Translations under genes and position numbers: made by a program | Source of the DNA: an uncultured Erysipelotrichaceae bacterium | GTDB taxonomy: Bacteria > Bacillota_I > Bacilli_A > RFN20 > CAG-826 | Length of the DNA: 49,383 bases | NCBI GenBank assembly: GCA_902796125.1 | Contig: CADBNT010000017.1 | Span: forward strand, 1 to 49,383 | Direction of reading: 5' to 3' | In this document: piece by piece, positions 14,639 through 49,383 of the stretch | Position numbering within the stretch: position 1 is the stretch's first letter | How the letters are laid out: the number at the start of each line of letters is the position of its first letter | The notes under the pieces: model-generated | Databases searched by the model: none | The model's input: only the letters and a program-made list of their open reading frames with translations | What the model was told of the DNA's origin: nothing

Positions 14639-14640
14639 AA

Positions 14641-31808: not shown

Positions 31809-32726
31809 CTATTTAATAATTGTTCCGGCTTTGCCTTCAAAGGCAAGTGGAGCTTTTTCTAGTGAGGAGATAATAGCAGTTTTTCCAGGAGCTTCATTAA
31901 GGAACTTAACACAAGCATTTACTTTTGGATACATTGATCCTTTTGCAAAGTAATCTGTCTTGAGATAATCTTCCATTTCTTTCTTGGAGACTGATTCTAA
32001 TTTCTTTTCATCTGGTTTACGGTAGTTGATATAAACGTTATCAACAGCAGTGAGGATGACAAGATAATCAGCATCTACAAGTGACGCAACTTTAGCGGAG
32101 GCATAGTCTTTATCAATGACTGCTGCGATTCCTTCAAGCTTTCCATCCTTTTCGATGACTGGGATTCCACCTCCACCAGCACAGATGACGATATCACCTT
32201 TCTTCACGAGTGAAGAAATACTTTCTTTTTCAATGACATCAACTGGAAGTGGGGAAGCAACGACTCTTCTATAACCACGACCAGCATCTTCTTTCATGGT
32301 ATAGCCTTTTTCTTTAGCAATCTTTTCAGCAGTTTCTTTATCGTAGAAACTTCCTACTGGTTTAGATGGACTTAAGAAGAGTGGATCATCTTTATCAACG
32401 AGAACTTGTGTCACAACAGTGGCGACATTTCTCTTTAATCCTGCTTCCTTAAGAGCGTTATAGATTGCATTTTGAATATGGAAACCAATGTAGCCTTGTG
32501 ACATTGCTCCACATTCTGGGAATGGCATATCTGGTGCGGAAGTTGATTCGGTGAAGGCGAGGTTAATCATACCTACTTGTGGACCGTTTCCGTGTACGAT
32601 AATGACTTCATTACCGAGTTTGATTAAATGAACAATAGATTTAGCAACACCTTTAAGTAATTCCTTTTGTTCTTCAGCATTATTACCTAAGGCATTACCA
32701 CCTAATGAGACGACGTATCTAGACAT
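31809..32726 (-). CDS. arcC: Carbamate kinase
   Basis: The start is set at ATG 32726 after AAGGAGA, giving 305 residues from MSRYVVSLGGNALG; the frame runs 11 codons further upstream without a site. Family motifs are VIIVHGNGPQVGMINLAF, CGAMSQGYIGFHIQNA, VVASPLPVDV and VICAGGGGIPVI. It converts carbamoyl phosphate and ADP to carbamate and ATP. In E. coli the related yqeA lies near ygeW-ygeX-ygeY. Here it diverges from the catabolic cluster that ends with ygeW, so it could harvest ATP from carbamoyl phosphate made by that pathway. No arginine deiminase gene is nearby. Confidence 0.94.
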   Translation of the reverse strand: MSRYVVSLGGNALGNNAEEQKELLKGVAKSIVHLIKLGNEVIIVHGNGPQVGMINLAFTESTSAPDMPFPECGAMSQGYIGFHIQNAIYNALKEAGLKRNVATVVTQVLVDKDDPLFLSPSKPVGSFYDKETAEKIAKEKGYTMKEDAGRGYRRVVASPLPVDVIEKESISSLVKKGDIVICAGGGGIPVIEKDGKLEGIAAVIDKDYASAKVASLVDADYLVILTAVDNVYINYRKPDEKKLESVSKKEMEDYLKTDYFAKGSMYPKVNACVKFLNEAPGKTAIISSLEKAPLAFEGKAGTIIK

Positions 32727-32750
32727 ATTTATCTCCTTAACTACGAAGAT

Positions 32751-32779
32751 ATTATACAACTTAAATATAAAATGACTAA
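32751..32779 (-). promoter_or_regulatory. Promoter of the carbamate kinase gene
   Basis: On the minus strand TATAAT (32756-32751) is preceded by a weak TTAGTC 17 bases before. The leader would be about 20 bases with the AAGGAG site. It overlaps the -35 box of the promoter on the other strand. Confidence 0.5.
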
Positions 32780-32807: not shown

Positions 32808-33395
32808 ATGAATAACTTTTTAAAAAGTTTAGCAATTATTCCCTTCTCTTTATCTTTGTTTTCTTGTAGTGCTAATGAGGTTACTCCAGAAGAATTTCTT
32901 CGCGCAATCGAGACGATAGAAAACCATGGATATGTAAGTGCGACTGAAACATATCAATATAAGAGTGTTTGTAATATTGGATTTGGAATGAACTTCGAAC
33001 ATGAAGACTTTGACACTATAGATTATTATTCTGATTCAGGGAGATGGAAACGGAAAGGACAATATAAGAGAACCCCTTTCTTCGATGATGAATTCGATGG
33101 GCCAACACGCACGGGGAGACTACATCTTGGTGTTTATAAGATTTCCAAGGACTTTATTAGTTATATCTATCTTTATGAAAACAATTGTACAAGGCACTAT
33201 TTTGTTAATCCGCTAAGAATTGAAGTAGAAGCTGATTATGTAAAAAAGGATATTAATTACAAAGGGAATGACAAATATGTTTTTAATGAATTTGGGTATC
33301 TAATCAAATTCGAATCCAAAGTCGTGGAAGATGATTACAATTCAATTTCAGGAACAACGACAGAAGAATTTTTGTCGACCATTGTTTTTAATTAG
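32808..33395 (+). CDS. Small lipoprotein of unknown function
   Basis: The 195-residue protein has a signal peptide with lipobox (MNNFLKSLAIIPFSLSLFSC, C20). The mature part is charged and Tyr-rich, with no motif I recognise. It lies between the divergent carbamate kinase gene and the mocA-xdh operon. An operator-like repeat and promoter separate it from mocA, so it may be an unrelated single gene. It starts without a visible ribosome binding site, like the lipoprotein gene at 23859. Confidence 0.72.
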   Translation: MNNFLKSLAIIPFSLSLFSCSANEVTPEEFLRAIETIENHGYVSATETYQYKSVCNIGFGMNFEHEDFDTIDYYSDSGRWKRKGQYKRTPFFDDEFDGPTRTGRLHLGVYKISKDFISYIYLYENNCTRHYFVNPLRIEVEADYVKKDINYKGNDKYVFNEFGYLIKFESKVVEDDYNSISGTTTEEFLSTIVFN

Positions 33396-33415
33396 TTCAT
33401 TTTCAAGGTTAAAAT

Positions 33416-33454
33416 GCACACGCGCTTGAAAGGTGTGCGCCTACATAATAAAAT
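33416..33454 (+). promoter_or_regulatory. Promoter of the mocA-xdh cluster with an inverted repeat over the -35 box
   Basis: TTGAAA (33426-33431) and TAAAAT (33449-33454) are 17 bases apart. GCACAC (33416-33421) and GTGTGC (33433-33438) are perfect inverted half sites with 11 bases between, so a dimeric regulator would cover the -35 box. The region is also G/C-rich compared with its surroundings. The repeat lacks a T run and is therefore not a good terminator. Confidence 0.6.
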
Positions 33455-33479
33455 ATAAGTACAATTTGTCGGAGTCAGA

Positions 33480-34028
33480 ATGATTACGGGGATTATTCTC
33501 GCGGGAGGTCTATCAACCCGCCTCAATACCAACAAACTTGTTCTTACTGTAAAAGGTAAGCCTCTTATTCGCTATGCGATTGAAGGGATGAAACCCTACG
33601 TTGATAAAATCATCGTAGTAACAGGAAAATATCACGATGAACTCCTTCCTTGGACAAAGGATGTTGTTGTAGTTAGAAACGATCACTATGAAGACGGAAT
33701 GTTCTCTTCAGTGCTTACTGGAGTAGAACACGTTGATGGTGATTTTTTCATTCTTCCAGGCGATATTTCATTTGTGTCTAAGAAAACTTATGAAGCTTTG
33801 CTTCATGGTTCTTTTTCTATACGCGTGCCTGCTCATGAAGGAAAAAACGGTCATCCTGTATTCTTCTTAAAAGAAAATAAAGAAAAAATACTTGCTATGT
33901 CTAAGGAATCCAATCTGAAGGAATATCTACTTGAAAAAGGTTTTGAAAAGATTGAAGTAAACGATCCAAATATCCTTAAAGATGTTGATACTCCAAAAGA
34001 TTACGAAGAATTATTATTGATTATGTAG
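33480..34028 (+). CDS. mocA: MocA-like molybdenum cofactor cytidylyltransferase
   Basis: The 182-residue protein is a GT-A nucleotidyltransferase with ITGIILAGGLSTRLNTNKLV, where family members have AGGxSxRMGxxK. The later motifs are NDHYEDGMFSSVLTGVE, FILPGDISFVS and GKNGHPVFF, which match MocA (E. coli ygfJ relative) better than MobA. It would attach CMP to molybdopterin to give the cytosine dinucleotide form used by many molybdenum hydroxylases. It is the first gene of the cluster and lies 14 bases before the first hydroxylase genes. GGAG precedes the ATG. Confidence 0.85.
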   Translation: MITGIILAGGLSTRLNTNKLVLTVKGKPLIRYAIEGMKPYVDKIIVVTGKYHDELLPWTKDVVVVRNDHYEDGMFSSVLTGVEHVDGDFFILPGDISFVSKKTYEALLHGSFSIRVPAHEGKNGHPVFFLKENKEKILAMSKESNLKEYLLEKGFEKIEVNDPNILKDVDTPKDYEELLLIM

Positions 34029-34042: not shown

Positions 34043-34825
34043 ATGAAAGCTAACTCATTTATCAAAGTTAAGTCACTTGAAGAAGCTTACAACCTTGTTA
34101 AAGAATCTCCAAAAAACAAGATTGTAGGTGGTGGACTTTGGCTTAAGAAAGGAAATGCAGCATGTGATAAGCTCATCGATTTATCTTTGCTTAGTTTAGA
34201 CAAGATTGAAGACAAAGGCGAATTTATTTCAGTAGGCGCGATGGTGTCTCAAAGAGAACTTGAAAAGAGTCCACTTATTAAAGACATCGGTCATGGCGTC
34301 ATTTCCAAAGCCGTTTCAGAAATCATGGGACCAGCCTTCCGTGAACTTGCGACTGTTGGAGGTTCAGTTTATGGAAAATATGGCTTCTCTGATTTAATCA
34401 CTGCCTTATTAGTAGTGAAGACCAAACTTGTCTTTTATCCAGACGCTGAACTTTCCCTTGAAGAATATCTTGCTAAGCCAGGATTCTATGATGGAATTCT
34501 CACTCATATTCTAATTAAGAAATGTCACTGCAAGACCTTCTTTAAGAAAGTTAAAATCACTGCTTTAGATTATCCAATCGTCAATATTGGTGTGCATAAA
34601 TGTGAAAAGCATACCTTCGTTGTAGTTGGCTCTCGTCCAGGTGTTGCCGCTATTTCTAAAGAAGCCCAAAAATATCTAGAAGAAGGCGGTAAAGATTTTG
34701 AAAAAGCCGCAGAACTCGCCGTAAATGAACTTAAATTCGGTGATTCTATTTCTACAAAAGCCGATTATCGTAAACATTTAGCGAAAGTCTATATTGCTCG
34801 TGGACTTGAGGAGGTAAGTAAATAA
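34043..34825 (+). CDS. ygfM: Molybdenum hydroxylase FAD subunit, YgfM-like
   Basis: The 260-residue protein has the CO dehydrogenase flavoprotein fold. A first FAD loop KIVGGGLWLKKGN (usually AGGTDLL) and a second RELATVGGSVYGKYGFSDLI (usually ATxGGNxxxxxPxxD) are visible but both differ from consensus. The stretch LSLEEYLAKPGFYDGILTHI and the overall length resemble E. coli YgfM (259). It would carry electrons from the iron-sulfur subunit to an acceptor. Its stop overlaps the next start codon by one base. Confidence 0.82.
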   Translation: MKANSFIKVKSLEEAYNLVKESPKNKIVGGGLWLKKGNAACDKLIDLSLLSLDKIEDKGEFISVGAMVSQRELEKSPLIKDIGHGVISKAVSEIMGPAFRELATVGGSVYGKYGFSDLITALLVVKTKLVFYPDAELSLEEYLAKPGFYDGILTHILIKKCHCKTFFKKVKITALDYPIVNIGVHKCEKHTFVVVGSRPGVAAISKEAQKYLEEGGKDFEKAAELAVNELKFGDSISTKADYRKHLAKVYIARGLEEVSK

Positions 34826-35274
34826 TGTTAGTCAAATTTAAACTAAATGGTGTTGATGTTGAACTTAACGTTAAACCAGGAGAATATCTCCTCGATTCAC
34901 TCCGTAATTATGGTGTGAAATCAGTTAAAAAAGGTTGCGATGCTTCCTCTTGTGGAGCGTGCACCGTTTTAGTCGACAACCATCCAGTTCTTTCTTGCTC
35001 ATATTTAACAGCGAGAGTTGAAGGAAAAGAAGTCACTACTGTAGAAGCCATTCAAGAAGAAGCCGCGAAACTTTCTGAATATTTCTCAAAAGAAGGCGCG
35101 GATCAATGTGGATTCTGCAATTCTGCTTTTGCCCTTTTAATCCATGCTTTAAAACATGAAAATCCTCATCCAAGCGATGAAGAAATTAAGGATTATATCG
35201 TTGGTAACCTTTGTAGATGCACTGGATACCAATCTCAATTCAAAGCCATTAAGGCTTATTTAGGAGGTAAGTAA
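34825..35274 (+). CDS. Molybdenum hydroxylase 2Fe-2S subunit (first set)
   Basis: The 149-residue protein has the plant-type ferredoxin cluster with C38, C43, C46 and C58 (GCDASSCGACTVLVD...SC) and the second cluster with C95, C98, C130 and C132 (QCGFCN...NLCRCTGYQ). It passes electrons from the molybdenum centre to FAD. GAGG precedes the ATG inside the end of the FAD gene. The next gene starts 2 bases after its stop codon. Confidence 0.95.
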   Translation: MLVKFKLNGVDVELNVKPGEYLLDSLRNYGVKSVKKGCDASSCGACTVLVDNHPVLSCSYLTARVEGKEVTTVEAIQEEAAKLSEYFSKEGADQCGFCNSAFALLIHALKHENPHPSDEEIKDYIVGNLCRCTGYQSQFKAIKAYLGGK

Positions 35275-35276
35275 AA

Positions 35277-37589
35277 ATGAAGAAATTCAAAGTAGTCTCC
35301 AACGTTACTCCTTCTGTAGACGGCAAAGGTATTATGATGGGTCGTTATGCCTATACTGATGACCTTGCACCTCAAAATGCTTTAGTTATTAAAATTCTCC
35401 GTTCTCCACATGCGTTCGCTCGTATTAAAAGCATCGATGTAAGCGAAGCGGAAAAATATCCAGGTGTCGCCTGCATCTTAACTCATAAAAACGTTCCTCA
35501 CGTTTCATTTACGAGAGCTGGACAAGGCTATCCTGAACCATCTCCACATGATAAGTTCATCTTAGATGAATATGTTCGTTATGTTGGTGATGAAGTCGCT
35601 GCAGTCGCAGCAGTTAATGAAGAAGTTGCTTTAGAAGCAATGAAACTTATCAAAGTCGAATATGAAGTTCTTGAACCAGTTTTAGATTTTGAAAAAGCAG
35701 TGGACAATAAATCCGTTCTTCACCCAGAAGATGGAATTCATGAAATGTTCCCAATTGGCTTTGAACCAAAACGTAATATTGCTGCAGCCTATGAAATGGA
35801 AGTTGGCAATGTTGAAGAAGAACTTAAAAAATGTGACTTTGTCGTTGAAGATACTTTCTACTCCCAAGCCCAAAATCACGCGATGCTTGAACCACATGCT
35901 TCTAACGCTCGTTTAGACGAACATAACCGTTTGGTGATTTATTCTACAACCCAAACTCCTTTCCACATGCGTCGTATCCTTTCTAAGACAATTGGTTTAC
36001 CAGTTGATCGTATTAGATTTATCAAACCTCGCGTTGGTGGTGGCTTTGGTGGAAAGCAAGCATTCCATGGTGAAATGTTTTGTGCATTAGTTACTCTTAG
36101 AACAAATAAACCTTCCAAGTGCGTCTTCACTCGCGAAGAAGTATTTGCATCTACATATACACGTCACCCAATGCGTATCAAAATGCGCGTTGGTGCGACT
36201 AAAGATGGTAAGATTCAAGCTATCGATTGTAGAGCCTTATCTGATACAGGCGCCTATGGCGAGCACGCTTTAACCGTCTTTATGATCGTTGGTAGTAAAG
36301 TCTTACCACTTTATAACAAAGTTAAAGCTGTTAGATTTGGTGGCCAAGTTGTTTACACAAACCACGAACCTGCCGGTGCATTCCGTGGATATGGCGCTAT
36401 CCAAGGTAACTACGCGGTTGAATCAATTATCGATGAACTCGCGGAGAAGATGGGTGTTGACCCAATTAAACTCCGTGAAGATAACTCCATGAAAGAAAAA
36501 GAAACTTCTCCAATCTTCAAGATTATGGGTGAAGGTACCGAAGGTACTGCTATGATCATGGAATCTTGTAAGCTCCCATACTGCATTAAACGCGGTAAAG
36601 AACTCATTGAATGGGATAAGAAATATCCAGTTAAGAAAGTTGGCCCACACACTATTAGATCAGTTGGTTGTGCGATTGCCATGCAAGGCAGTGGTATTCC
36701 ATTCCTTGATATGGGTAGCTGCTCCATTAGATTAAATGATGGTGGCTCATACATGGTCACTGTTGGTGCGACTGATATCGGTCAAGGTTCCGATACTGTT
36801 ATTTCTCAAATCGTAGCAGAAGAACTTGGTACAACAATGGATAAAGTCATTATCTATTCTTCAGATACTGACCTTGCTCCATTTGATTGTGGTGCGTACG
36901 CATCATCCACAACATACGTAAGTGGTAATGCGGCGTGGAACGCAGCTAAGAAGATGAGAGAAAGACTCATCAAAGAAGCTGCTGATTACCTTAAGGTAAA
37001 AGTTGATAGCGTTGAATTTGATGGCTCTAAATTCACTTCTGGAAATAAAGAAGTCACTTTAGATGAACTTTCAGTGAAGAGATTTTATAACGAAGACACT
37101 CATCAAATCGCAGTTACTGAATCCTTCCATGGACATGTTTCGCCTCCTCCATTTATGGCAGCGTATGGTGAATTCGAATTTGATACTGAAACATTCGAAT
37201 ATAAGATGATTAACTATGTTACCGTTACAGACTGCGGTACAACTATTAACCCAATGCTTGCTAAAGGACAAGTTGAAGGTGGAGTTATCCAGGGTTATGG
37301 AATGGCTTCTAGTGAAGAAGTTGTTTATAGTCCAAAGGGTAAATTACTAACTAATAGTTATGATACATATCACATTCCAACCACAAAAGAAGTTGGAAAC
37401 TTAATATCTGAATTCGCTGATTCATATGAACCAACCGGTCCGTTTGGTGCGAAGTCTGTCGGTGAAATTGGTATTGATACACCTCCAGCTGTTCTTTGTA
37501 ACGCTGTTTATAATGCGTTTGGAGTGAGAATCCATTCTCTTCCAATTACTCCTCAAAAGATTTTTGAAGCAGTTAAGGCTAAAAAATAA
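35277..37589 (+). CDS. Molybdenum-binding subunit of xanthine dehydrogenase-family hydroxylase (first set)
   Basis: The 770-residue subunit has the hammerhead domain (RSPHAFARIKSIDVSEAEKY), then RVGGGFGGKQAFHG (about 252) for the cofactor. The substrate-side Arg is in PAGAFRGYGAIQGN (about 367) and VTVGATDIGQGSD is next. The catalytic Glu lies in AKSVGEIGIDTP (about 730). The length is like E. coli XdhA (752) and unlike the fused XdhD. It should hydroxylate a purine or related ring; the precise substrate cannot be read from these motifs. Together with the two genes before it, it forms a complete heterotrimer. Confidence 0.9.
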   Translation: MKKFKVVSNVTPSVDGKGIMMGRYAYTDDLAPQNALVIKILRSPHAFARIKSIDVSEAEKYPGVACILTHKNVPHVSFTRAGQGYPEPSPHDKFILDEYVRYVGDEVAAVAAVNEEVALEAMKLIKVEYEVLEPVLDFEKAVDNKSVLHPEDGIHEMFPIGFEPKRNIAAAYEMEVGNVEEELKKCDFVVEDTFYSQAQNHAMLEPHASNARLDEHNRLVIYSTTQTPFHMRRILSKTIGLPVDRIRFIKPRVGGGFGGKQAFHGEMFCALVTLRTNKPSKCVFTREEVFASTYTRHPMRIKMRVGATKDGKIQAIDCRALSDTGAYGEHALTVFMIVGSKVLPLYNKVKAVRFGGQVVYTNHEPAGAFRGYGAIQGNYAVESIIDELAEKMGVDPIKLREDNSMKEKETSPIFKIMGEGTEGTAMIMESCKLPYCIKRGKELIEWDKKYPVKKVGPHTIRSVGCAIAMQGSGIPFLDMGSCSIRLNDGGSYMVTVGATDIGQGSDTVISQIVAEELGTTMDKVIIYSSDTDLAPFDCGAYASSTTYVSGNAAWNAAKKMRERLIKEAADYLKVKVDSVEFDGSKFTSGNKEVTLDELSVKRFYNEDTHQIAVTESFHGHVSPPPFMAAYGEFEFDTETFEYKMINYVTVTDCGTTINPMLAKGQVEGGVIQGYGMASSEEVVYSPKGKLLTNSYDTYHIPTTKEVGNLISEFADSYEPTGPFGAKSVGEIGIDTPPAVLCNAVYNAFGVRIHSLPITPQKIFEAVKAKK

Positions 37590-38891
37590 ATGAACGATCT
37601 TTTAATCAAAAACGGACTCGTTTATCTAGATGGCAAATGGAAAAAGACCAATATTGCCATCAAAGATGAAAAGATATCTCAAATTGGAGATGAAGTTTTT
37701 GATGCAAAAGAAACACTTGATGCAAGTGGAAGGAAAGTCCTTCCTGGATTAATTGATCCGCATGTTCATTTCGAACTTGGCGTTGGTAAAAATAAATCCG
37801 TTGATGATTTCTATTATGGCTCAATATGTGCAGCCTATGGTGGAGTTACAACCATCATCGATTTCCTTGATCCAACATCAAATGCGAAAGATTTAGAAAA
37901 GTCTTTCTATGAAAGAGCTGAACAAGCTAAGAAATCAATTGTCGATTATCATTTCCATGCTTGCATTAAAAATCCAGATGGTGATTTAGAAGAATTTGTT
38001 AAGACAGTTGTTCGTTTAGGAATGAAAACTATTAAGTTATTCACCACCTATAGTGACACCGGAAGAAGAACATATGATAAAGATATCATTGAACTTCTTA
38101 AATTATCGAAGAAATACGATGTCTTAATATGCGCGCATATTGAAAATGACGACATGATTGATATTCGTGAAGATTATACTTTTGAAGATTTACCTCGTTC
38201 TCGTCCATCTTTATCGGAGACTAGTGAGGCTTTGAAACTTGCAAGTTATGTTCGTAAATATGGCGGTAATTTTTATATGGTTCATTGCTCAAGTGGTGAA
38301 ACTCTTAAAGCTCTTAAAGAACAATTTAGCGATATTCTAGGCAAAAATTTCTTTGTCGAATCTTGTCCTCAATACTTTGTATTTAATAATGAAGTACTTC
38401 ATGAAGAAAATGGAAAACTCTTTACATTTGCTCCACCTCTAAGAAGTGAAAGAGAAAGACAACTTATGGTCGCAAACTTCGAAGAAGTTAACACTATTGG
38501 AACCGACCACTGTGCCTACTTTAAAAAGCAAAAAGATCATCCAACTCTAATTGGTTTTCCTTTAGGAGTTGGAGGAGTGGAACATTCTTTCTCTATTATG
38601 TATCGTCGCTTCAAAGATGAATGCATCGATAAGATGTCTAAAAATCTTTCTAAAATAGAAAATTTCCCTAATAAAGGTGAAATTAAAGTTGGAAATGATG
38701 CGGATATTGCTATCTTTAAAGAAGTTGAGGATTTCTTCATTCATGAGAATCATGGTAGATGTGATTATTCCATCTATGATGGAGTAATTGCTTCTGGTGA
38801 ATTTAGTGATGTTATTAGAAGAGGTAAATTCATTTTAAAAGATAGAAAGATTATTGAATCAAAAGGAAAACTAATTAACTGTGGAGAATAA
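37590..38891 (+). CDS. hyuA: Dihydropyrimidinase/hydantoinase-like cyclic amidohydrolase
   Basis: The 433-residue protein has all residues of the binuclear metal site: H58 and H60 (DPHVH), the Lys expected to be carbamylated K149 (MKTIKLFTTY), H183 (CAHIEND), H232 (MVHCSSGE) and D306 (GTDHCAYF). It opens cyclic amides such as dihydropyrimidines or hydantoins. It starts right after the preceding stop codon. In the E. coli cluster the hydantoinase gene has the same neighbours. With an upstream reducing enzyme it would open the reduced ring. Confidence 0.92.
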   Translation: MNDLLIKNGLVYLDGKWKKTNIAIKDEKISQIGDEVFDAKETLDASGRKVLPGLIDPHVHFELGVGKNKSVDDFYYGSICAAYGGVTTIIDFLDPTSNAKDLEKSFYERAEQAKKSIVDYHFHACIKNPDGDLEEFVKTVVRLGMKTIKLFTTYSDTGRRTYDKDIIELLKLSKKYDVLICAHIENDDMIDIREDYTFEDLPRSRPSLSETSEALKLASYVRKYGGNFYMVHCSSGETLKALKEQFSDILGKNFFVESCPQYFVFNNEVLHEENGKLFTFAPPLRSERERQLMVANFEEVNTIGTDHCAYFKKQKDHPTLIGFPLGVGGVEHSFSIMYRRFKDECIDKMSKNLSKIENFPNKGEIKVGNDADIAIFKEVEDFFIHENHGRCDYSIYDGVIASGEFSDVIRRGKFILKDRKIIESKGKLINCGE

Positions 38892-38893
38892 AT

Positions 38894-40192
38894 ATGAAAG
38901 CTCTTATTAACGTTAGAATCTACGACTATTACAAATATATCGAAAATGGTTTTATTATCTTTGATAACGAAATTAGAGAAGTCGGTGAAATGAAAGACTT
39001 TTCGCCTCGATATGATTTGGAAGTCATTGATGGAAAAGGCGATATGGTGCTTCCATCCTTTGTATGCGCTCACGCACATATTTACTCAATATTTGCAAGA
39101 GGTTTAGCTCTTCCATTTGATCCAAAGAATTTCCAAGATATTCTCGATCAGCTTTGGTGGAAAATCGACGCTCAAATCGATAACGAGATTACCTACTATA
39201 GCGGAATTGCGGCAGCGTCTGAATTCCTCCTTAACGGAGTCACTTCTGTTATTGACCATCATGCCTCTGGAGAGATTCTTGGTTCGCTTACATCCTTAAA
39301 GAAAGCTGTTAGTGATGTAGCTGGCATGAGAGGCATTTATTGTTTTGAAACTAGCGATAGATATAACGTTAGTGAATGCGTTAAAGAAAATAGAGATTTC
39401 TTACTAAATAATCATGATGAACATTCTGCAGGTTTATTTGGTATGCATGCTTCTATGTCACTTTCAAATGAATCTCTTGAACTTATTAGAGATAACCTTG
39501 CTGGTGGACAAATCCATTGTCACGTCGCGGAATCAAAAATGGATGAACAAGATTCACTCCATAAATATGGATTAAGAATTATTGAAAGACTCGATAAATA
39601 CAATTTATTATCACCAAAATCACTCATTGTTCACGGCGTTGATTTAAATGATGCTGAACTAGATATTATCGCTAAATCAGGCGCATGGATGGTTGTCAAT
39701 ACAACCAGCAATATGAATAACGCAGTTGGACTCCCAAATGTTAAAGCTTATTTAGACCATAATATTCCAGTTATGGTTGGTAATGATGGACTAAATTCTA
39801 ATATGGCGTCAGAACTCATGAATGTATTTTATACATCTCATCTTAAAAACGAGACTCCTAAAGAGCTCAATCTTGGAGACGTTCTTAAGATGATACATAA
39901 CTCATATGAATATGTTTCTAGCCGTTTAAATATTAAACTTGGTAGATTTGAAAAAGGATATAAGGCTGACTTATTAAGAGTCAAATATTCACCGTTTACA
40001 TTAATGAATAAGAATAACGCTTTTGGTCATGTTTTCTATGGCTTATATCCAAACTTCAAACCAAGTCACGTATATATCGATGGTAATGAAGTAGTGAAAG
40101 ATTATAAACTTTGCTCCAAAAAACTCTTGGAAGAGCTTGAAATTGCAAAAGATTATTCTGAGAAACTTTGGGTTAAAGTCGTTAATAAATAA
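38894..40192 (+). CDS. ssnA: SsnA-like amidohydrolase
   Basis: The 432-residue protein belongs to the TrzN/ATZ amidohydrolase group. The metal ligands are H60 and H62 (CAHAHIYSIFARG), a His with catalytic Glu in HCHVAESKMDEQDSLHKYG, a His in IVHGVDLND and an Asp in VGNDGLNSNMASEL. Length and motifs match SsnA (442 in E. coli). It probably deaminates a purine-derived intermediate. GGAG lies 10 bases before the ATG, and only 2 bases separate it from the hydantoinase gene. Confidence 0.9.
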   Translation: MKALINVRIYDYYKYIENGFIIFDNEIREVGEMKDFSPRYDLEVIDGKGDMVLPSFVCAHAHIYSIFARGLALPFDPKNFQDILDQLWWKIDAQIDNEITYYSGIAAASEFLLNGVTSVIDHHASGEILGSLTSLKKAVSDVAGMRGIYCFETSDRYNVSECVKENRDFLLNNHDEHSAGLFGMHASMSLSNESLELIRDNLAGGQIHCHVAESKMDEQDSLHKYGLRIIERLDKYNLLSPKSLIVHGVDLNDAELDIIAKSGAWMVVNTTSNMNNAVGLPNVKAYLDHNIPVMVGNDGLNSNMASELMNVFYTSHLKNETPKELNLGDVLKMIHNSYEYVSSRLNIKLGRFEKGYKADLLRVKYSPFTLMNKNNAFGHVFYGLYPNFKPSHVYIDGNEVVKDYKLCSKKLLEELEIAKDYSEKLWVKVVNK

Positions 40193-40215
40193 GTTCTACT
40201 AAAAGGAGAAAAGAT

Positions 40216-41313
40216 ATGGACTTAGTAACAAAATTTGATGGATTAGTACTTGAAAATCCACTTATGCCTGCAGCAGGACCGCTCGTTGGTGATGCTGAAA
40301 AAATGTTATGGCTTGAAAAAGTCGCTGGTTTAGGAGCAATTGTTTCTAAAACAATTTCTACCAAAGATGCGCACATTCCTCACCCATGTATTTATGGTGA
40401 AGGAAACTACATTCTTAACTGTGAACTTTGGACTGAATACACCAAAGAAAAATGGTTAGATGAATTCTTGCCTTACTATAAGAAAAATTCTTTAGGAAAA
40501 CCTTTAATTATCTCGGTTGGTTATACCAAAGATGATATGAAGGTCTTAATTCCTTTATTAGATAAATTCGCGGATGCTTTTGAGGTTTCTACTCACTATG
40601 TTGGTAATGACTTAAATAGCTTAGGCGAAACAGTTAGAACAATTCGCTCATTAACTAAAAAACCAATTTATATGAAGATATCTGCTCATATGCCAGATCC
40701 AAAAGGATTTGCTCGTACTATCAAAGAAAATGGAGCGAATGGTGTAGTAGCAGTTAACTCCCTTGGTCCAAGTATGAAGATTGATATTGCTAGTAGAAAT
40801 ATTATCTACGGTAACGCTAAAGGCTTTGCCTGGACAAGTGGACCATATATTAAAAATATCGCTCTAGCGACTGTTTATACCATTAAACAAGCTGAACCAT
40901 CATTAACCGTTATCGGTGTTGGTGGTATCGCTAGTGCTTCTGATGTCATTGAATTCCTTCTTGCTGGCGCTGATGCAGTTCAAATGCTTTCAGCAGCGAT
41001 GCTTAAAGGAAAAGATTTATATGCCAAAATCATTGCTGATCTCCCAGCAACACTTGAAAAATATGGATTTAAATCAATTGAGGAAGTTAAGAAAACTCAA
41101 CTCATCAATGATGTTAAATATGAAAAAGGCGATGTCCCATCTTGTGATGAAAAGAAATGTATCAAATGTGGAACTTGTTCCAAGATTTGTCCATATTTCG
41201 CTATCGAGATGGATGGACTTCCAAAATTTAATTCCGAGAAGTGCTTCCGTTGTGGACTTTGTGTAAGTAAATGTCCAACCAAAGCTCTTCTATATAGAAA
41301 GGCGGCGAAATAA
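40216..41313 (+). CDS. PreA-like flavo-iron-sulfur oxidoreductase with altered active site
   Basis: The 365-residue protein is a dihydroorotate dehydrogenase-type barrel. It shows GLVLENPLMPAAGPLVGDAE, KPIYMKISAHMPDPKGFA, VNSLGPSMKID and VIGVGGIASASDVIEFLLAG. Two 4Fe-4S motifs end the protein (CIKCGTCSKICP and CFRCGLCVSKCP). The family motif with the catalytic Cys (NFSCP in the PreA at 14641) is replaced by EVSTHYVGND. No PreT partner is encoded beside it, so it may use the PreT at 13406 or a different donor. It sits where YgfK would be expected and may do the reductive step of the pathway. AAAGGAG precedes the ATG. Confidence 0.85.
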   Translation: MDLVTKFDGLVLENPLMPAAGPLVGDAEKMLWLEKVAGLGAIVSKTISTKDAHIPHPCIYGEGNYILNCELWTEYTKEKWLDEFLPYYKKNSLGKPLIISVGYTKDDMKVLIPLLDKFADAFEVSTHYVGNDLNSLGETVRTIRSLTKKPIYMKISAHMPDPKGFARTIKENGANGVVAVNSLGPSMKIDIASRNIIYGNAKGFAWTSGPYIKNIALATVYTIKQAEPSLTVIGVGGIASASDVIEFLLAGADAVQMLSAAMLKGKDLYAKIIADLPATLEKYGFKSIEEVKKTQLINDVKYEKGDVPSCDEKKCIKCGTCSKICPYFAIEMDGLPKFNSEKCFRCGLCVSKCPTKALLYRKAAK

Positions 41314-43412
41314 TGTCCAAATACCCAACCTCCGTAAAGAAGGTTGATTTCCCAGAGAAGATATCAGGTAAAGCTAAATACGCTGATGACTTTGTCTTCC
41401 CTGATATGCAATATGCGAAGACAGTTCGCTCAACCATTCCGTGCGGAAAAATTAAAAAGATTACTGTTCCAAAATTACCTGATGGTTATTATTGGATCAG
41501 TGCCAAAGATATTGTTAAGGAAAATGTTGTAAACATTATCTTCTCTGATTGGCCAGTTTTTGCTGATGGTAGAGTTAACTACTGCGGTGAAGCGATTGGT
41601 ATCTTTGTTGGTGAAGATAAAGCAATCCTTGATAAACTTTGCGAAGAAATCAAAGTTGAATATGAGCCTGAAACTCCTATTTATGATTTTTCGGAAGCTT
41701 ATATTTCAAAAGGTTATAAAAAAGGCGACTACGAGGCTGCTAAGAAAAAAGCTAAACAAGTCGTACGTAGAACCTATCAAACTGGTTACCAAGAACAAGC
41801 CTATATTGAACCTCAAGGTTTAGTTCTTTATTACGATGAATCTGGCAAGATGACAATTACCGGTTCAATGCAATGTCCTTTCTATGTTAAAAGGGCAGTT
41901 ATGCGCACATTAGGTTTAAAAGATGATGAGGTCCGCGTTATTCAACCTGCAGTTGGTGGAGCTTTTGGTGGAAAAGAACATTATCCATCTTTAATCGGTG
42001 CCCAACTTGCTACCGCTTCATATAAAATTCATAAGCCAATCAAGATGGTCTTTGAACGTTATGAAGATATTGCTTATTCCACGAAGCGTCACCCATCTAA
42101 AACTGAGATGGAAGCTCTTATCGATGAGAATAAAAATATCATCGGTATTAAATCAAAAGTCTCCCTTAATGGTGGAGCATATAAAGGCTGCAGTGGTGTA
42201 GTTCTTTCTAGAGCGCTTATTGCCGCTACAAATGCTTATGTTATTCCAAATTTAGACATCTCTGGTGATGTTTATAGAACCAATACAGTTCCTACTGCTG
42301 CGTTTAGAGGATTTGGTTCTCCTCAAACGATTTTTGCTATGGAAATGTTCATTCATCACATTGCTAAAGAGATTGGTGTTGATCCACTTGAACTTAGAAT
42401 GAAATACCTTGCAAAACAAGGCGATATCACTGCAAATTCCGGTAAATTCCATGATCCAATCGTCTTAGATAAGCTCTTTGAAAAGGCAATGGAGATGTCT
42501 GATTATAAACGCAAAATTGCCGAATATTCTAAACCTGGTTCCTTACGTGGAATTGGCATGTCTTGCTTCCTCCACGGCTGTGGTTTTACCGGTTCAGGTG
42601 AATCCGATATCATCCATGCGAAAGTGAAGGTTTCTAAAGACGAAAATGACCACGTCACATGTTACGCTTCAAGCGTCGATATGGGACAAGGCTGTAGAAC
42701 CACTTTAAAACATATTGTCGCGAAGAATCTTGGCCTTCCAGATGATGAAGTTGAAATGGATTATCCAGATACTGATAAAACCCCAGATTCTGGTCCAACT
42801 GCTGCTAGTAGAACCATCATCATCGTTGGTTTCTTAATGGAAAAAGCGGCTAAGAATTTGAAGAAGATATGGAAAAAAGGTGTCGCTCAAGAAATTATCG
42901 AACCTTATGTCGGTCCAAGTTATATTCACTGGGACGAAGAAACAATGCAAGGCGATGCTTATCCATCCTATTCATGGGGTGTTAATGTCGTCGAAGTTGA
43001 ATTCTCCCCAGTCACATTCGAGATTACTCTTAAAGGGGTTTGGTCTGTTTATGATGTTGGCCGCGTTGTCGACGAAAGAATCGCGGTTGGTCAAGCTGAT
43101 GGTGGAGTTCTCCAAGGCATTGGCTATGGTTTCATGGAAAACGAAACTTGTGTTGATGGTAAGTTTAAACAAAGAAGCTTATCTGATTACATCATTCCAA
43201 CCACCATGGATGTTCCTCATATGGAAACAGCCTTTATTGATAATCCGTTTATTTATGGTGCGGATGGTGCAAAAGGAATGGGCGAACTTACTTTAGTCGG
43301 TGGAGCTCCAGCGGTTGCTTTAGCAATTGAAAACGCAATTGGTAAAGAAATCCACAAGATTCCGGCAACACCAGAATACATTATGGAGGTTTTAAAAGAT
43401 GGCAAAAATTAA
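41313..43412 (+). CDS. Molybdenum-binding subunit of xanthine dehydrogenase-family hydroxylase (second set)
   Basis: The 699-residue protein has a shortened hammerhead domain, then AVGGAFGGKEHYPSLIG (about 213), TAAFRGFGSPQTIFAMEM with the active-site Arg (about 329) and CYASSVDMGQGCRTTL. Its catalytic Glu is in AKGMGELTLVGGAPA (about 655). AFRGFGxPQ is closer to classical xanthine dehydrogenase than the first set. It starts in the stop codon of the PreA-like gene and overlaps the next gene by 14 bases. Identity to the first Mo subunit looks low over most of its length, so the two probably have different substrates. Confidence 0.9.
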   Translation: MSKYPTSVKKVDFPEKISGKAKYADDFVFPDMQYAKTVRSTIPCGKIKKITVPKLPDGYYWISAKDIVKENVVNIIFSDWPVFADGRVNYCGEAIGIFVGEDKAILDKLCEEIKVEYEPETPIYDFSEAYISKGYKKGDYEAAKKKAKQVVRRTYQTGYQEQAYIEPQGLVLYYDESGKMTITGSMQCPFYVKRAVMRTLGLKDDEVRVIQPAVGGAFGGKEHYPSLIGAQLATASYKIHKPIKMVFERYEDIAYSTKRHPSKTEMEALIDENKNIIGIKSKVSLNGGAYKGCSGVVLSRALIAATNAYVIPNLDISGDVYRTNTVPTAAFRGFGSPQTIFAMEMFIHHIAKEIGVDPLELRMKYLAKQGDITANSGKFHDPIVLDKLFEKAMEMSDYKRKIAEYSKPGSLRGIGMSCFLHGCGFTGSGESDIIHAKVKVSKDENDHVTCYASSVDMGQGCRTTLKHIVAKNLGLPDDEVEMDYPDTDKTPDSGPTAASRTIIIVGFLMEKAAKNLKKIWKKGVAQEIIEPYVGPSYIHWDEETMQGDAYPSYSWGVNVVEVEFSPVTFEITLKGVWSVYDVGRVVDERIAVGQADGGVLQGIGYGFMENETCVDGKFKQRSLSDYIIPTTMDVPHMETAFIDNPFIYGADGAKGMGELTLVGGAPAVALAIENAIGKEIHKIPATPEYIMEVLKDGKN

Positions 43413-43872
43413 ATTTAACCTCAATCATAAAGACGTTGAAGTCGAACTTGATCCATCCACAAGACTTATCGATGTTCTTCGTGAGCACTTTGGTTTAAAA
43501 GGTGTTAAAGAAGGATGCGGTGAAGGCTCATGTGGAGCGTGCGTTGTTCTTTTAGATGGCTATAGTGTGAACTCTTGTTTACTTCCACTCGCTAATGTTG
43601 AAGGACACGAAGTTATTACTATCGAAGAATTCTCAAAAACAAAACGTTTTGAAGTTCTTAAAGAAGCATTCGCGGATGAAGGTGCTACTCAATGTGGTTT
43701 CTGTTCTCCAGGAATGATTATTGCTGGAGAAAGTTTACTTTCTCATAATCCACATCCAACTGAAGAAGAAGCTCGTGAAGCTCTTTCTGGTAACCTTTGT
43801 AGATGCACCGGTTATCAATCGATTGTTCACGCTGTTTTAGAAGCTTCTAAGAAAGGAGAAGGCTTATGGTAA
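43399..43872 (+). CDS. Molybdenum hydroxylase 2Fe-2S subunit (second set)
   Basis: This 157-residue protein has C40, C45, C48 and C60 (GCGEGSCGACVVLLD...SC) and C99, C102, C134 and C136 (QCGFCSPGM...NLCRCTGYQ), the two 2Fe-2S clusters of the family. The CGFCSPGM form is canonical, unlike CGFCNSAF in the first set. It overlaps both neighbours (14 and 7 bases), so the three genes are translationally coupled. GGAGG lies before the ATG, within the Mo-subunit gene. Confidence 0.95.
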   Translation: MAKIKFNLNHKDVEVELDPSTRLIDVLREHFGLKGVKEGCGEGSCGACVVLLDGYSVNSCLLPLANVEGHEVITIEEFSKTKRFEVLKEAFADEGATQCGFCSPGMIIAGESLLSHNPHPTEEEAREALSGNLCRCTGYQSIVHAVLEASKKGEGLW

Positions 43873-44720
43873 AAAAATATATTGCTTATTCCTTAGATGA
43901 AGCTTTAGACATTTTAGCTAGCAAGGATGTTTATATCGTTGCTGGTGGTTCAGATATGATGGTGCAAAAGAAGAACACAGCTGGACTTCTTCCAAAGTTT
44001 GACAAAGATGTTCTTTATGTCTCACATATTGATGAACTTAAAAAAGTCTATGAAGATAAAGATGGTATCCACATTGGTGCGGGTGCTCATTTATCTGATT
44101 TAGAAAATAATAAGTTAGTTCCTGAATTACTTCGAAAATGCATTAGCGAAGTTGCTTCAGTTAATATTCGCCATTTTGCAACTTTAGCAGGCAATATTGC
44201 GAATGCATCTCCTGCTGGTGACACGATCGTTATCGATGTTTTATTAGACGCAGAAGTTGTGCTTGTAAGTAAAAAAGGAATTAGAAAAGTTAAAGCAGAA
44301 GACTTTGTCTTAGGTGTTAGAAAAATAGATAGACACCAAGACGAGTTAATTAAAGAACTCATCTTCCCAGTTCATAAATTTGATAAAGAATTATGGCATA
44401 AAGTTGGCTCTAGAAAAGCTGACTCAATTTCTAAACTTTCTTTCGCTGGAGTGTATTCTCTTTTAGGCGATAAAGTTAAGGAATTTAGATGCGCCTTTGG
44501 CTCAGTAGCAATTAAAGTCATGAGAAGCCATGAACTTGAGAAGGAAATTGAAGGTATGTCTTTAAGTGAGCTTAATGCTCAAAAAGACGAATTAATTGAA
44601 AAATATAGTCATGTCATCGCGCCTATTGATGATCAACGTTCCAACAAGGAATATCGTCAAAAGGTTGCTATGAATATCTTGGCTAAGTTTTTAGATGAAA
44701 TTATTAAAGGAGGTAAGTGA
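43866..44720 (+). CDS. Molybdenum hydroxylase FAD subunit (second set)
   Basis: The 284-residue protein has near-consensus FAD loops: VYIVAGGSDMMVQKKN and IRHFATLAGNIANASPAGDT. It is thus a typical flavoprotein subunit of the family, unlike the divergent YgfM-like one. The C-terminal part contains DSISKLSFAGVYSLL and the CO dehydrogenase flavoprotein C-terminal domain. AAAGGAG is found in the end of the previous gene. The stop codon overlaps the next start (TGATG). Confidence 0.92.
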   Translation: MVKKYIAYSLDEALDILASKDVYIVAGGSDMMVQKKNTAGLLPKFDKDVLYVSHIDELKKVYEDKDGIHIGAGAHLSDLENNKLVPELLRKCISEVASVNIRHFATLAGNIANASPAGDTIVIDVLLDAEVVLVSKKGIRKVKAEDFVLGVRKIDRHQDELIKELIFPVHKFDKELWHKVGSRKADSISKLSFAGVYSLLGDKVKEFRCAFGSVAIKVMRSHELEKEIEGMSLSELNAQKDELIEKYSHVIAPIDDQRSNKEYRQKVAMNILAKFLDEIIKGGK

Positions 44721-45964
44721 TGAATTATATTAAGGGATATCGTTGTACGATATGCCAAAAAGAATTTAAACCTGGTGAAGTCGGTTTAACCTGCCCTCAT
44801 TGTGGTGAAAAAGGAATTCTCGATGTCATTTATGATTATGACAAATTAAAAGAAGTGCTCACCAAAGAATACTTTGCTAATAATCGTAATTATTCCATGT
44901 GGCGTTATTGGCCAATGATGGGTATCGAGGAAACTCACATCGATGAAATGCTTCGTATTGGTTGGACTCCACTTTATCACGCGAGAAGATTAGGTGAATA
45001 TCTTGGCGTTAAAAAGTTATACGTTAAAGACGATGGACTTAATCCAAGCGGATCAAGTAAAGACCGCGCTAGTGGTGTTGCAGTCTTAAAAGCTATTGAA
45101 GCTGGAGCGAGAACAATCGCGTGTTCTTCGACAGGTAATGCTGCAAGTAGCTGTGCATGTCAAGCAGCTCACATGGGTTTAAAAGCAGTTATCTTTGTTC
45201 CAAAAAGAGCGCCTATTGGCAAGGTAACTCAAATTTCACTTTATGGTGCAACCTTAATTAGCGTAGATGGTGATTATAAAGCGGCATTTAAATTATCAAA
45301 GGCTGCCATCGATAAATATGGATGGTATAACCGTAACGCTGCCATTAACCCATTTATGGTTGAAGGCAAGAAAACTGTCTCGCTAGAAATCGCAGAACAA
45401 CTTGGTTGGGAAGTAACTGACTGGGTTGCAATTAGCGTTGGTGATGGTTGTACTGTTGGCGGAGTTTATAAAGGATTTGCGGAGTTATTCAAACTCGGTT
45501 TAATTAAAAAGATTCCAAAAATCCTCGGTGTTCAGTCAACTGGCTGTTGTCCATTTGTCATTGCCTCTAAAAATAACGAACCACTTAAAGAGGCTGACGA
45601 AAACACGATTGCAGACTCAATTGCAGTCGGTATTCCACGCAACCCTATTAAAGCAATTAATGCAATTAAGAACTCTAATGGTGCTTGGATTGCAGTCCCT
45701 GACAGTGATATCATTAACTCTATGGCGATACTAGGTCGCCTAGAAGGCGTATTCGGTGAACCTGCCGGTGTAGCAGCGATCGCCGGAATTAAAAAAGCAG
45801 TGGAACAAGGAATCATCAAAAAAGATGAAACTGTTACCACAATTGTGACTGGAAACGGACTTAAAGATCCAGCCAATGCCCAAAAGGCAATTAATGCACC
45901 AGTCCTCATGAAACCAAATCTAGAAGAATTGGATAAATTTTTGAAAGAAAAAGGAGTAATTTAG
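44720..45964 (+). CDS. Threonine synthase-like PLP-dependent enzyme with zinc ribbon
   Basis: ATG 44720 was chosen because AAAGGAGG lies 6 bases before; GTG 44717 also reads in frame. The 414-residue protein begins with a zinc ribbon (C9, C12, C25, C28) and continues as a fold-type-II PLP enzyme. It has GWTPLYHARRLGEYLGV, the PLP lysine K114 in NPSGSSKDRASG, the SSTGNAASSCACQAAHMG loop and SVGDGCTVGG. It resembles zinc-ribbon threonine synthases, but no threonine pathway gene is near. Its position between the hydroxylase and ygeY suggests an ammonia-lyase or synthase step on an amino-acid product, as YgeX does elsewhere. Confidence 0.82.
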   Translation: MNYIKGYRCTICQKEFKPGEVGLTCPHCGEKGILDVIYDYDKLKEVLTKEYFANNRNYSMWRYWPMMGIEETHIDEMLRIGWTPLYHARRLGEYLGVKKLYVKDDGLNPSGSSKDRASGVAVLKAIEAGARTIACSSTGNAASSCACQAAHMGLKAVIFVPKRAPIGKVTQISLYGATLISVDGDYKAAFKLSKAAIDKYGWYNRNAAINPFMVEGKKTVSLEIAEQLGWEVTDWVAISVGDGCTVGGVYKGFAELFKLGLIKKIPKILGVQSTGCCPFVIASKNNEPLKEADENTIADSIAVGIPRNPIKAINAIKNSNGAWIAVPDSDIINSMAILGRLEGVFGEPAGVAAIAGIKKAVEQGIIKKDETVTTIVTGNGLKDPANAQKAINAPVLMKPNLEELDKFLKEKGVI

Positions 45965-45966
45965 AT

Positions 45967-47337
45967 ATGTCAAAAATTCCATTTGGCCCAACATATGATG
46001 AAATGCTCAATCCATCACATGCTGATCCAGCAACTAGAGCAGCTGCTCTTAAAGCTCTAAAAGAAAACGAGCTTGATCCAATTAACTTATTCAATATCAC
46101 ATGGAAAAATGAGAAGGATGAAGTTAATAAAATTGTTCTTCCAAAAGCATTAACCGGTGTCGACGCAAACATCGTTGTTTTGTATGGTAAGAACTTCCCA
46201 TCTGGTTCCCACAAAGTTGGTCCAGCTTATGCAACCCTTATGGAAGGTTGTGTTGATGGTGAAATTATTCCAGGAAAACACACTATTCTTGGTCCATCCA
46301 CAGGTAACTTTGGTATCGGTGTTTCTTACATCACCAATTTAATGAAGTATAAAGCCATTGTTATCATGCCTGACAACATGTCAAAGGAAAGATATCAAAG
46401 AATTCGCAAATATGGTGCTGAATTAGACCTCACTCCAGGTAGCGAATCCGACGTTATTCTTACCCTTGAAAGAACTTATGAACTTAAGAAAAATCCTCTT
46501 AATAGAACATTAGCTCAATTTGAATTACTTCCAAACTATCGTTTCCATAGACACGTTACCGGTAATTCTGCTGTTGAAGCTGTTAAAGGCATCGGTAATG
46601 GCCGTGTCGCATGCTTCTGTTCTGCTCCAGGTAGTGCAGGTACATTAGCGGCTGGTGATGCAATTAAAAAAGTATTCCCAGAATGTAAGATTGTTGCTCT
46701 TGAACCACATGAATGTTCAACACTTACAAATGGTGGCTTAGGTCAACACCGTATTGAAGGTATTGGCGATAAGATGATCACTCTTATTCATAACGTTTTA
46801 ACTACCGACTTCATAACTCAAATTATTGACGAAGATTGCGTCCGTGGTTTAGCAGTTATTCATGAAGGTAGCGATATCTTAGTTAAGCATGGTGTTTCTA
46901 AGAAAGAAGCCGAAGCAATGGTTAACCTCTTCGGTGTTTCTGGAATTTGTAACATCTTAGGTGCCATTAAAATGGCAAAATATCTCAAACTTGGCCCAGA
47001 TGATAACGTCGTTACAATCGCAACCGATAGTTTTGATAGATATCCATCAGTTATCGAAGACTTACATAGACGTGAACTCGAAGTTACTCCAAACGTCCTT
47101 GAAAGATGGTTTGAAGATGTCTTTATGGGTGCAGATACTTCCTATGTTTTAGATACACGTGGTAAAGAAGCTAAGGAAAAACTCTTCACACAAAAAGAGA
47201 AAGATTGGCTTAAATTTGGTTATTCACAAGAATATTTGGATTCAATGAGAAAGCCAGAATTCTGGGAAAACGAATATAACAAAATTTACGATTACGATAA
47301 GAAAATTAAAGAACTTCGTGGAAAGGAAATTAAATAA
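45967..47337 (+). CDS. PLP-dependent enzyme of the cysteine synthase-like superfamily
   Basis: The 456-residue protein has the PLP lysine K83 in [14 protein letters not shown], the phosphate/carboxylate loop [17 protein letters not shown] (110-126) and a later glycine-rich [16 protein letters not shown], so it is fold type II. It is longer than cysteine synthase by about 140 residues and has an unusual charged C-terminus ([19 protein letters not shown]). It does not match diaminopropionate ammonia-lyase (YgeX), which has FKMLGG around the lysine. It lies 2 bases after the threonine synthase-like gene and overlaps the ygeY start by one base. Confidence 0.82.
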
Positions 47338-48551
47338 TGAAAGTAAGTTACGAGGAAATCCTTAAAAAAGCTGAGTCATATAAGAAAGATATGACCAAGT
47401 TCCTCCGCGACATGGTTGCTATTCCAAGTGAATCATGTGGCGAAAAAGAAGTCGTTCTTCGCATCAAAGAAGAAATGCTTAAAGTTGGTTTCGACAAAGT
47501 CGAGATTGACCCAATGGGCAACATTCTTGGCTATTTAGGTCATGGTAAACACCTCATCGCGATGGACGCTCACATCGATACAGTTGGTATCGGTGAAATC
47601 AAAAACTGGAAGTTTGATCCATACAAAGGTTATGAAGATGATGTCCATATTGGTGGACGTGGTACTTCTGACCAAGAAGGTGGTATGGCTTCCATGGTCT
47701 ATGCTGCCAAAATTATCAAAGATCTTCACTTAGAAGACGACTACACCTTACTTGTTACAGGTACAGTCCAAGAAGAAGACTGTGATGGTCTTTGCTGGAA
47801 GTACATCATTGAACAAGACAAGATTAAACCTGAATTCGTTGTTTCTACCGAACCAACAAGCTGCCGTATCTACCGTGGACACCGCGGCCGTATGGAAATT
47901 AAGGTTAATGTACGTGGTATCTCTTGCCATGGTTCTGCTCCAGAACGTGGCGATAACGCTATTTACAAAATGGCTGATATCATTAAACAAATCCAAGAAC
48001 TTAACGAACATGGTTTAGCCTATGATCCATTCCTTGGAAAAGGTACAGTCACCATTTCTCAAATCTTCCATAAATCACCATCCCGTTGCGCAGTCGCAGA
48101 TGGTTGTTGGATTAGTCTTGATAGAAGACTTACTGTCGGTGAAAACGACAAAACATCTATCGCTGAAATTGAAAACTTACCAGCAGTTAAGGCTGCTAAA
48201 GCAGAAGTTACAATGTATGATTATGAACGCCCAGCATATACTGGTCTTGTTTATAAACAAGAATGTTACTTCCCAACCTGGGTTATTCCAGAGGATTCAA
48301 TTTTCGTTCAATCAATGAGACAAGGTTATCTTGGTTTATTTAAGAAAGAACCAGTTATTGATAAATGGACCTTCTCAACCAATGGCGTCTCCATCATGGG
48401 TCGCTTTGGTATTCCATGTATCGGCTTTGGCCCAGGCGATGAAAAAGAAGCTCACGCACCAAATGAAAAGACTCGTAAAGATGATCTCGTCATCTGTGCA
48501 GCTATGTATGCCGCCTTACCAGGCTTATACCTTGAAAATTTAAAGAAATAG
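47337..48551 (+). CDS. ygeY: YgeY-like M20-family metallohydrolase
   Basis: The 404-residue enzyme has the M20 metal and catalytic motifs: MDAHIDTVG (H79, D81), [13 protein letters not shown] (D112 bridging), TVQEEDCDG (catalytic Glu about 146 and metal Glu about 147), a metal acid in STEPTS and a late His in KEAHAPNE. The dimerisation domain starts near [15 protein letters not shown]. Length matches YgeY (403) of the selenium/purine-linked cluster. It probably hydrolyses an amide or carbamoyl bond of a ring-opened intermediate. It is directly upstream of ygeW. Confidence 0.92.
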
Positions 48552-48562: not shown

Positions 48563-49383
48563 ATGGAAAAAATCGCACCAAAATTCGCTGGAAGACACTT
48601 AATTACTCTTGAAGATTTCAGCAAAGAAGAAATCGACTACATCTTAAAAGTTTCTCACGAAATGAAAGATGCTTTCTATCGCAACGAAGAAACTCAATGG
48701 TTAGTTGGTAAAACTGGTTTCTTGATGTTCTTTGAACAATCAACACGTACCAGAAACTCATTTGAAAGTGGTATGGCTCAACTCGGTGGCCACGCTACAT
48801 TCCTTGATACATCAATGATGCAAATTGCTCATGGTGAATCAGCCAAAGATACAGCAGTTATCTTATCCTCTTTTGGACATATGATTGCTTGCCGTTATTG
48901 TAACTGGGGTCTTGGTAACAAATATATCCGTGAAATGGCTAAATGGTCCACAGTCCCAATTATCAACTTACAATGTGACTTATATCACCCAATGCAAGCT
49001 CTTGCAGACTTAATGACCATTGAAGATGAATTTGGCAAAACAAAGAACTTAAAGGTTTCCGTTATTTGGGCAATGGCCACAACACACAAGAAACCAATTT
49101 CAGTTCCAGTTTCACAAGTTTTACTCTTCCCAAGATATGGAATTGATGTCACATTAGCATACCCAGAAGGATACGATTTACCAGACTGGGTTATCGAAAA
49201 AGCACGCAAAAATGCTGCAGAAAACGGGGGTTCTTTAACAATTACCCACGACATGGATGCTGCTTACAAAGATGCTGATGTAGTCTTCCCAAAGAACTGG
49301 GGTTCATGGGTTACTAACCAATCTACCACAGTTGTCGATGATGCATTACTTGCCCTTAAGGCTTGGAAATGTACACCAGATAA
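48563..49383 (+). CDS. ygeW: Knotted carbamoyltransferase YgeW, cut by the window end
   Basis: The frame starts at ATG 48563 after AGGAGAG and runs open to the last base (273 full codons); the family has about 396 residues, so about 120 are missing. The carbamoyl phosphate motif STRTRNSF (residues 60-67), HGESAKDTA and the YHPMQALADLMT motif (141-152) place it in the aspartate/ornithine carbamoyltransferase superfamily, and context identifies YgeW. It would exchange a carbamoyl group between phosphate and an amino acid such as a ureido acid. Carbamate kinase at 31809 could use the carbamoyl phosphate. Confidence 0.93.
   Translation, partial: MEKIAPKFAGRHLITLEDFSKEEIDYILKVSHEMKDAFYRNEETQWLVGKTGFLMFFEQSTRTRNSFESGMAQLGGHATFLDTSMMQIAHGESAKDTAVILSSFGHMIACRYCNWGLGNKYIREMAKWSTVPIINLQCDLYHPMQALADLMTIEDEFGKTKNLKVSVIWAMATTHKKPISVPVSQVLLFPRYGIDVTLAYPEGYDLPDWVIEKARKNAAENGGSLTITHDMDAAYKDADVVFPKNWGSWVTNQSTTVVDDALLALKAWKCTPD

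Follow-up and report, generated by a model that had tools for sequence, protein, structure and literature searches.

The stretch in front of mocA reads as the regulatory region of a single sigma-A-type promoter that drives an operon of anaerobic uric-acid degradation, and its best-supported control element is a palindrome with a fixed core (H1) together with the adjoining alternating purine-pyrimidine tract, through which a predicted dimeric regulator may act. To this reading as a whole, which includes the view that the perfect inverted repeat GCACAC-N11-GTGTGC over the -35 box results mostly from the tract, we give about an even chance. The promoter was found in all genus relatives with sequence at this place, and H1 and the tract were found in some of these and also in a second genus. 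As far as sequence can tell, H1 and the tract probably help to control the genes for uric-acid breakdown. An uncultured gut lineage, Candidatus Fiminaster (GTDB genus UBA3207, order RFN20, family CAG-826, according to the available part of PMC8957277), gains a defined, testable control region, and a false lead is weakened; the available parts of the literature on regulation name no regulator for this lineage. The features are collected in Table 1 with their positions in the window, by which we mean the whole analyzed stretch of 49,383 nucleotides.

Table 1. Features of the mocA control region and of the neighboring genes in the window
Feature	Position	Strand	Remark
Carbamate kinase, divergent	31809..32759	-	arcC model above its cut-off
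H1, CATTTT-CAAGGTT-AAAATG, conserved 7-base core, co-varying arms	33398..33416	+	Proposed site of a dimeric regulator
Alternating purine-pyrimidine tract ATGCACACGCGC, abuts the -35 box	33414..33425	+	CACGC inside, at 33419-33423
Inverted repeat GCACAC-N11-GTGTGC	33416..33438	.	No counterpart seen in relatives
-35 box TTGAAA	33426..33431	+	Counterpart in relatives
-10 box TAAAAT	33449..33454	+	Counterpart in relatives
Ribosome binding site GGAG	33471..33474	+	By eye
mocA/ygfJ-like NTP transferase, first operon gene	33480..34028	+	NTP_transf_3; MocA_YgfJ model below cut-off
Rest of operon	34043..48551	+	Profile matches; most NCBIfam models below cut-off, YgeY above
Carbamoyltransferase, cut by the window end	48563..49383	+	Above cut-off with Pfam; below it with the models for ornithine carbamoyltransferase and YgeW

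The catabolic cluster proposed by the first-pass annotation of this DNA was recovered, with the promoter at the head of a purine-type gene set, the anaerobic uric-acid cluster of Candidatus Fiminaster. Downstream of mocA, the operon contains two xanthine-dehydrogenase-like sets, hyuA-like and ssnA-like genes, genes for two PLP enzymes, ygeY, and a gene for a dihydroorotate-dehydrogenase-fold enzyme with 4Fe-4S domains, which may fill the UacX/PydA role; the carbamoyltransferase and the carbamate kinase would fill those of YgeW and yqeA, respectively. By their profiles, the XDH-like, SsnA, HyuA, YgfK/UacX-like, YgeY, YgeW, YgeX-like, and carbamate kinase genes occur together in the cluster, which fits the genes assigned to reductive uric-acid degradation in the available text of section 5 of PMC12507026. 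Since many NCBIfam models matched below their cut-offs, the roles of single genes are putative. The cluster holds no regulator gene, as had been claimed, among the 10 proteins scanned with Pfam, the FeS protein (34825-35274), the YgeW-like protein, and the carbamate kinase; two small subunits (43399-43872 and 43866-44720) were recognized by position and similarity only. Some 6.5 kb before the operon lies a gene for an XRE-type helix-turn-helix protein (26243-26875, minus strand), a candidate regulator, and at L109 an XRE-like gene (by eye) adjoins the carbamate kinase. The carbamate kinase adjoins the cluster in some relatives, not always, and in several it is directly divergent from mocA; in the window, a 195-amino-acid open reading frame (32808-33395), lipoprotein-like by eye and with no family match, separates the two genes. 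Elsewhere in the window, adjacent genes for a RelB antitoxin and a PIN-domain protein (31026-31760) are a likely toxin-antitoxin pair, and two adjacent genes at 13406-15888 have Pfam domains like those of both subunits of NAD-dependent dihydropyrimidine dehydrogenase, so that the window may also encode pyrimidine reduction.

A mocA homologue was present in 15 of the 24 genus genomes, and the second gene of the operon was found in 45 of 279 genomes of the order. A scan of named genomes gave 41 loci, of which 39 encode the Mo subunit of the cluster (at 69-88% identity), the other two being remote (28-29%). Within the limits of the contigs, mocA was followed by the same genes in an unchanged order, with the exception of L053, which lacks hyuA at its place; for L177 to L182 the gene check covered mocA and the FAD gene only. 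Four of the 46 upstream regions (L016, L064, L087, and L143), taken from contig-end copies of one genome, were false starts, which left 42 non-redundant ones. At six loci (L085, L095, L099, L105, L107, and L157) no mocA start was obtained, and the upstream sequence was short at L116 (41 bases), L182 (134 bases), and L003 (148 bases). Tests on 15 promoters left out L009 to L011, near-copies of L007, and the comparison with other genera used 16 promoters with a -35/-10 call. A tree of the FAD subunit, in which L002, L003, and L004 grouped together (90/90), served only for judging lineages.

The proposed promoter proved plausible: a -35/-10 pair recurred in all 14 genus promoters with sequence. 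In the window the -10 box ends 25 bases before the mocA start codon, ATG at 33480, and its spacing would place the start of transcription near position 33461. A plasmid search with the promoter gave no match. At five loci of other genera (L093, L094, L097, L108, and L109), AT-rich palindromes upstream of mocA cover the -35 box or lie close to it (by eye), among them TGTTGAT-N2-ATCAACA in L094 and L097; the -10 boxes of these loci stand only 6-7 bases before the start codon, which suggests leaderless mRNA.

H1 carries most of the argument. Its core, [N]AAGGTT on either strand, was found in 10 of the 42 non-redundant mocA upstream regions, and in six of these 10 (L002, L006, L014, L015, L103, and L106) it was framed by perfect arms of at least 5 bp; CAAGGTT itself occurred in 8 of 15 promoters, with 0.1 expected. 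The same core stood between other arms in L006, L014, L015, L103, L106 (where it reads AAAGGTT), and L156 (with one mismatch, adjoining the core), was inverted with a 9-base loop in L003, and lacked arms in L012 and L091. Among 16 of the 17 TCAAGGTTA places in the genome (L135 being left out), H1 alone had arms longer than 4 bp, those of the other 15 measuring 1-4 bp. Neither this form nor its inverse was seen in 9 of the 14 genus promoters (L004, L005, L007, L009 to L011, L008, L012, and L013), and L104, of the second genus, also lacked it. Since H1 was found in L103, L106, and L156, which belong to that other genus (g37), and in several branches of Candidatus Fiminaster, it is probably ancestral to both genera and was lost or changed in others.

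The arms of H1 co-varied. Across seven promoters of the two genera, 34 of 35 cells were paired and 12 cells were double-changed, and the covariation score was 1.03, versus at most 0.15 when the pairing was slid by one to three bases. None of 500 shuffles reached three of the five measures (paired cells, double changes, and score), while the other two, which were counting measures, were ordinary and were reached by 119 and 108 of the 500 shuffles; the seven rows were picked out of 10 for a core in this orientation, with L003, L012, and L091 left out. Co-varying arms around a fixed core are, to our knowledge, unusual for a double-stranded operator. The distances from the H1 center to the -10 box were 42, 43, 53, 53, 54 (L003, inverted core), 56 (L106), 64, and 64 bases, in steps of about 10.7 bp or roughly one helical turn, the spacing to be expected if a bound protein has to face RNA polymerase. 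The phasing was modest, with Rayleigh p values of 0.033, 0.014, and 0.009 for periods of 10, 10.5, and 11 bp in six lineages, in which L014 and L015 were merged, as were L103 and L156, and L106 was entered as 56 after its boxes had been re-read by hand as TTGCGC-17-TAAAAT (the other pair, called by the script, gave 61); an eight-value set that added L004 and the palindrome of L008, L012, and L013 was post hoc. That palindrome, a perfect ATTTTGAATATATATTCAAAAT, lies upstream of mocA in L008, L012, and L013, each time 74.5 bases from the -10 box. No regulon supports H1, because no second copy was recognized in this genome and the look-alikes that were read lie inside open reading frames: one of the 11 with 2-3 mismatches in this genome, and four of the six with 3 mismatches in G173, G175, and G176.

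The tract lies upstream of the -35 box. Its longest alternating run averaged 10.4 in the 15 promoters, versus 5.3 farther upstream, 4.3 in the 16 promoters of other genera, and a genomic background of 4.7-4.9, and none of 20,000 resamplings was as high as 10.4; the longest runs were 12 in the window, 16, 17, 13, and 15 in others, and shorter elsewhere. When promoters were taken singly and compared with dinucleotide shuffles, 5 of the 15 had a run that is rarely matched (p ≤ 0.01), and in 9 the run was unremarkable (p > 0.1). CACGC or GCGTG was present in 11 of the 15, with 0.8 expected. A concentration of alternating runs in the coding part of the operon was considered and rejected, with 7 runs in 15 kb in the window and 0.2-0.33 per kb in seven relatives versus 0.17 per kb at 52 other own-genome loci. 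In the proposed mechanism, a dimeric regulator encoded elsewhere would bind H1 and would sit on a helix face allowing contact with RNA polymerase, most likely as an activator that answers to a purine or an intermediate, and the tract may bend, melt, or mark the DNA beside the -35 box.

The inverted repeat that had drawn attention to this promoter is real. Its arms (33416-33421 and 33433-33438) match without a mismatch and the -35 box lies inside it with a spacer of 17 bases to the -10 box, both as described in the first-pass annotation; the arms are 4/6 G+C in an 84-bp intergenic region of 37% G+C. With 6-bp arms of at least 4/6 G+C and a loop of 3-20 bases as the definition of a comparable repeat, at least one arose in 1.3% of 1,000 dinucleotide shuffles of the intergenic region, and the whole window contained 27 matches, one per 1.8 kb. 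Both arms lie in alternating purine-pyrimidine DNA, the reverse complement of which also alternates, and shuffles that preserved the purine/pyrimidine pattern of 33414-33442 yielded such a repeat in 12% of 5,000 cases. By eye, the window, TTGAAAG-GTGTG-CGCCTACAT, resembles L014, TTGAAAGCGCCTACAT, with five bases inserted, and this apparent GTGTG insertion accounts for most of the right arm.

The operator claimed for the repeat fared less well. In the genome (1.0 Mb, 91.5% complete) the search for further copies recovered a single one at ≤1 mismatch; at ≤3 mismatches there were 70 matches per strand versus 59 for the pattern read backwards, and no regulon of the repeat was recognized in this genome. 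The outcome named beforehand as speaking against an operator, that relatives with this cluster would lack the repeat before mocA, was what we found: with the 11-base gap and ≤3 mismatches, it occurred in none of the 13 genus relatives for which upstream sequence was at hand and, overall, in none of the 41 other non-redundant regions. It is weak as an operator because of this absence and its one genomic copy, and most likely it does not act as the operator but results incidentally from two stretches of alternating sequence, one within the spacer. That the repeat is a genuine repressor operator over the -35 box, with half-sites that drift fast between species along with their repressor, is nevertheless the strongest of the alternatives, although we think it unlikely. 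The perfection of the arms, matched locally by so few dinucleotide shuffles, leaves room for a species-specific operator, and other G/C-rich repeats overlap the -35 box in L003, L007, and L103, which makes 4 of 15 promoters including the window versus 1.1 expected (a number reached in 1% of 200 shuffles). However, these repeats differ in arms, gaps, and positions, and the frequency with which pattern-preserving shuffles recreate the repeat also counts against an operator. The first-pass annotation rightly saw a promoter worth testing, but the repeat is its least conserved feature.

The paired arms of H1 could also be read as those of a hairpin. One form of this idea, in which H1 is extruded as a cruciform or single strand with a fixed CAAGGTT loop and any complementary stem, and forms with the possibly Z-DNA-prone tract a supercoiling-driven switch of the operon, strikes us as a long shot. 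The other, in which H1 and the G/C-rich repeat are not sites in DNA but form hairpins in RNA, either a transcribed leader or a small RNA, that starts farther upstream, we judge quite improbable. Arms that co-vary around a fixed loop are what RNA hairpins show, and the H1 strand folded better than its shuffles with DNA parameters (z = -4.3, with 5 of 200 folding as well), but the stem of 5-6 bp is weak (-2.4 kcal/mol, DNA parameters), H1 lies upstream of the -35/-10 pair, and its helical-turn steps suggest DNA. The repeat as a DNA hairpin was ordinary (z = -0.8, 45 of 200 shuffles folding equally well), and Rfam gave no family at gathering score in the window, with two chance-level matches at 33300-33600.

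Carbon catabolite repression, with the operon as a target of the LacI-family protein CcpA and a cre site over the -35 box that the GTGTG insertion has broken in the window, we hold for a similarly poor prospect. It draws on cre-like sequences starting inside the -35 box in L004 (TGTAAACGCTTCCA, 13/14), L014 (TGAAAGCGCCTACA, 13/14), and L013 (12/14), equaled in 0-0.8% of shuffles, on the alignment with L014 given above, and on the one LacI-family protein in the genome, for which ccpA was the best model. Yet this protein scored 177 of 442 bits with the ccpA model, far below the cut-off, and the best match to TGWAARCGYTTWCA with its central CG in the 130 bp before mocA was 10/14, equaled by 55.6% of shuffles, so that no cre was accepted in the window; most relatives were likewise ordinary, and loose matches across the genome numbered 78 per strand versus 68 for the reversed control. 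HPr kinase was found in 0 of the 24 genus genomes by a search that picked it up in just 3 of the 14 control genomes and missed that of B. subtilis.

Three known systems come closest, the PucR box and regulon of B. subtilis being one of them. H1, written TTTTCAAGGTTAA, resembles the PucR box, WWWCNTTGGTTAA, and purine-catabolism genes are under control in both cases; unlike that box, H1 is a palindrome with varying arms. PucR itself was rejected as the regulator, the HTH_30 domain (PF13556) being found in none of the 24 genus genomes (20 were listed as lacking a match, and the other 4 belong to the unlisted genomes that lack one) and in 120 of the 279 genomes of the order. In B. subtilis, PucR governs purine catabolism, with a box upstream of -35 that activates and a box over -35 that represses, as stated in the available part of PMC10242094, citing Beier et al. 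2002. With the CcpA/cre system, L004, L013, and L014 share a cre-like sequence that starts inside the same -35 box, whereas the window is without one. The uricolytic cluster of E. coli shares the pathway genes largely, and its promoter is under global control, with a Crp site between ygeV and ygeW, in the accessible portion of PMC12507026. The gene order differs from that of E. coli, and a putative UacX/PydA-like enzyme stands at the place of E. coli YgfK; C. difficile has a UacX/PydA-like enzyme instead of YgfK, according to the same portion of PMC12507026.
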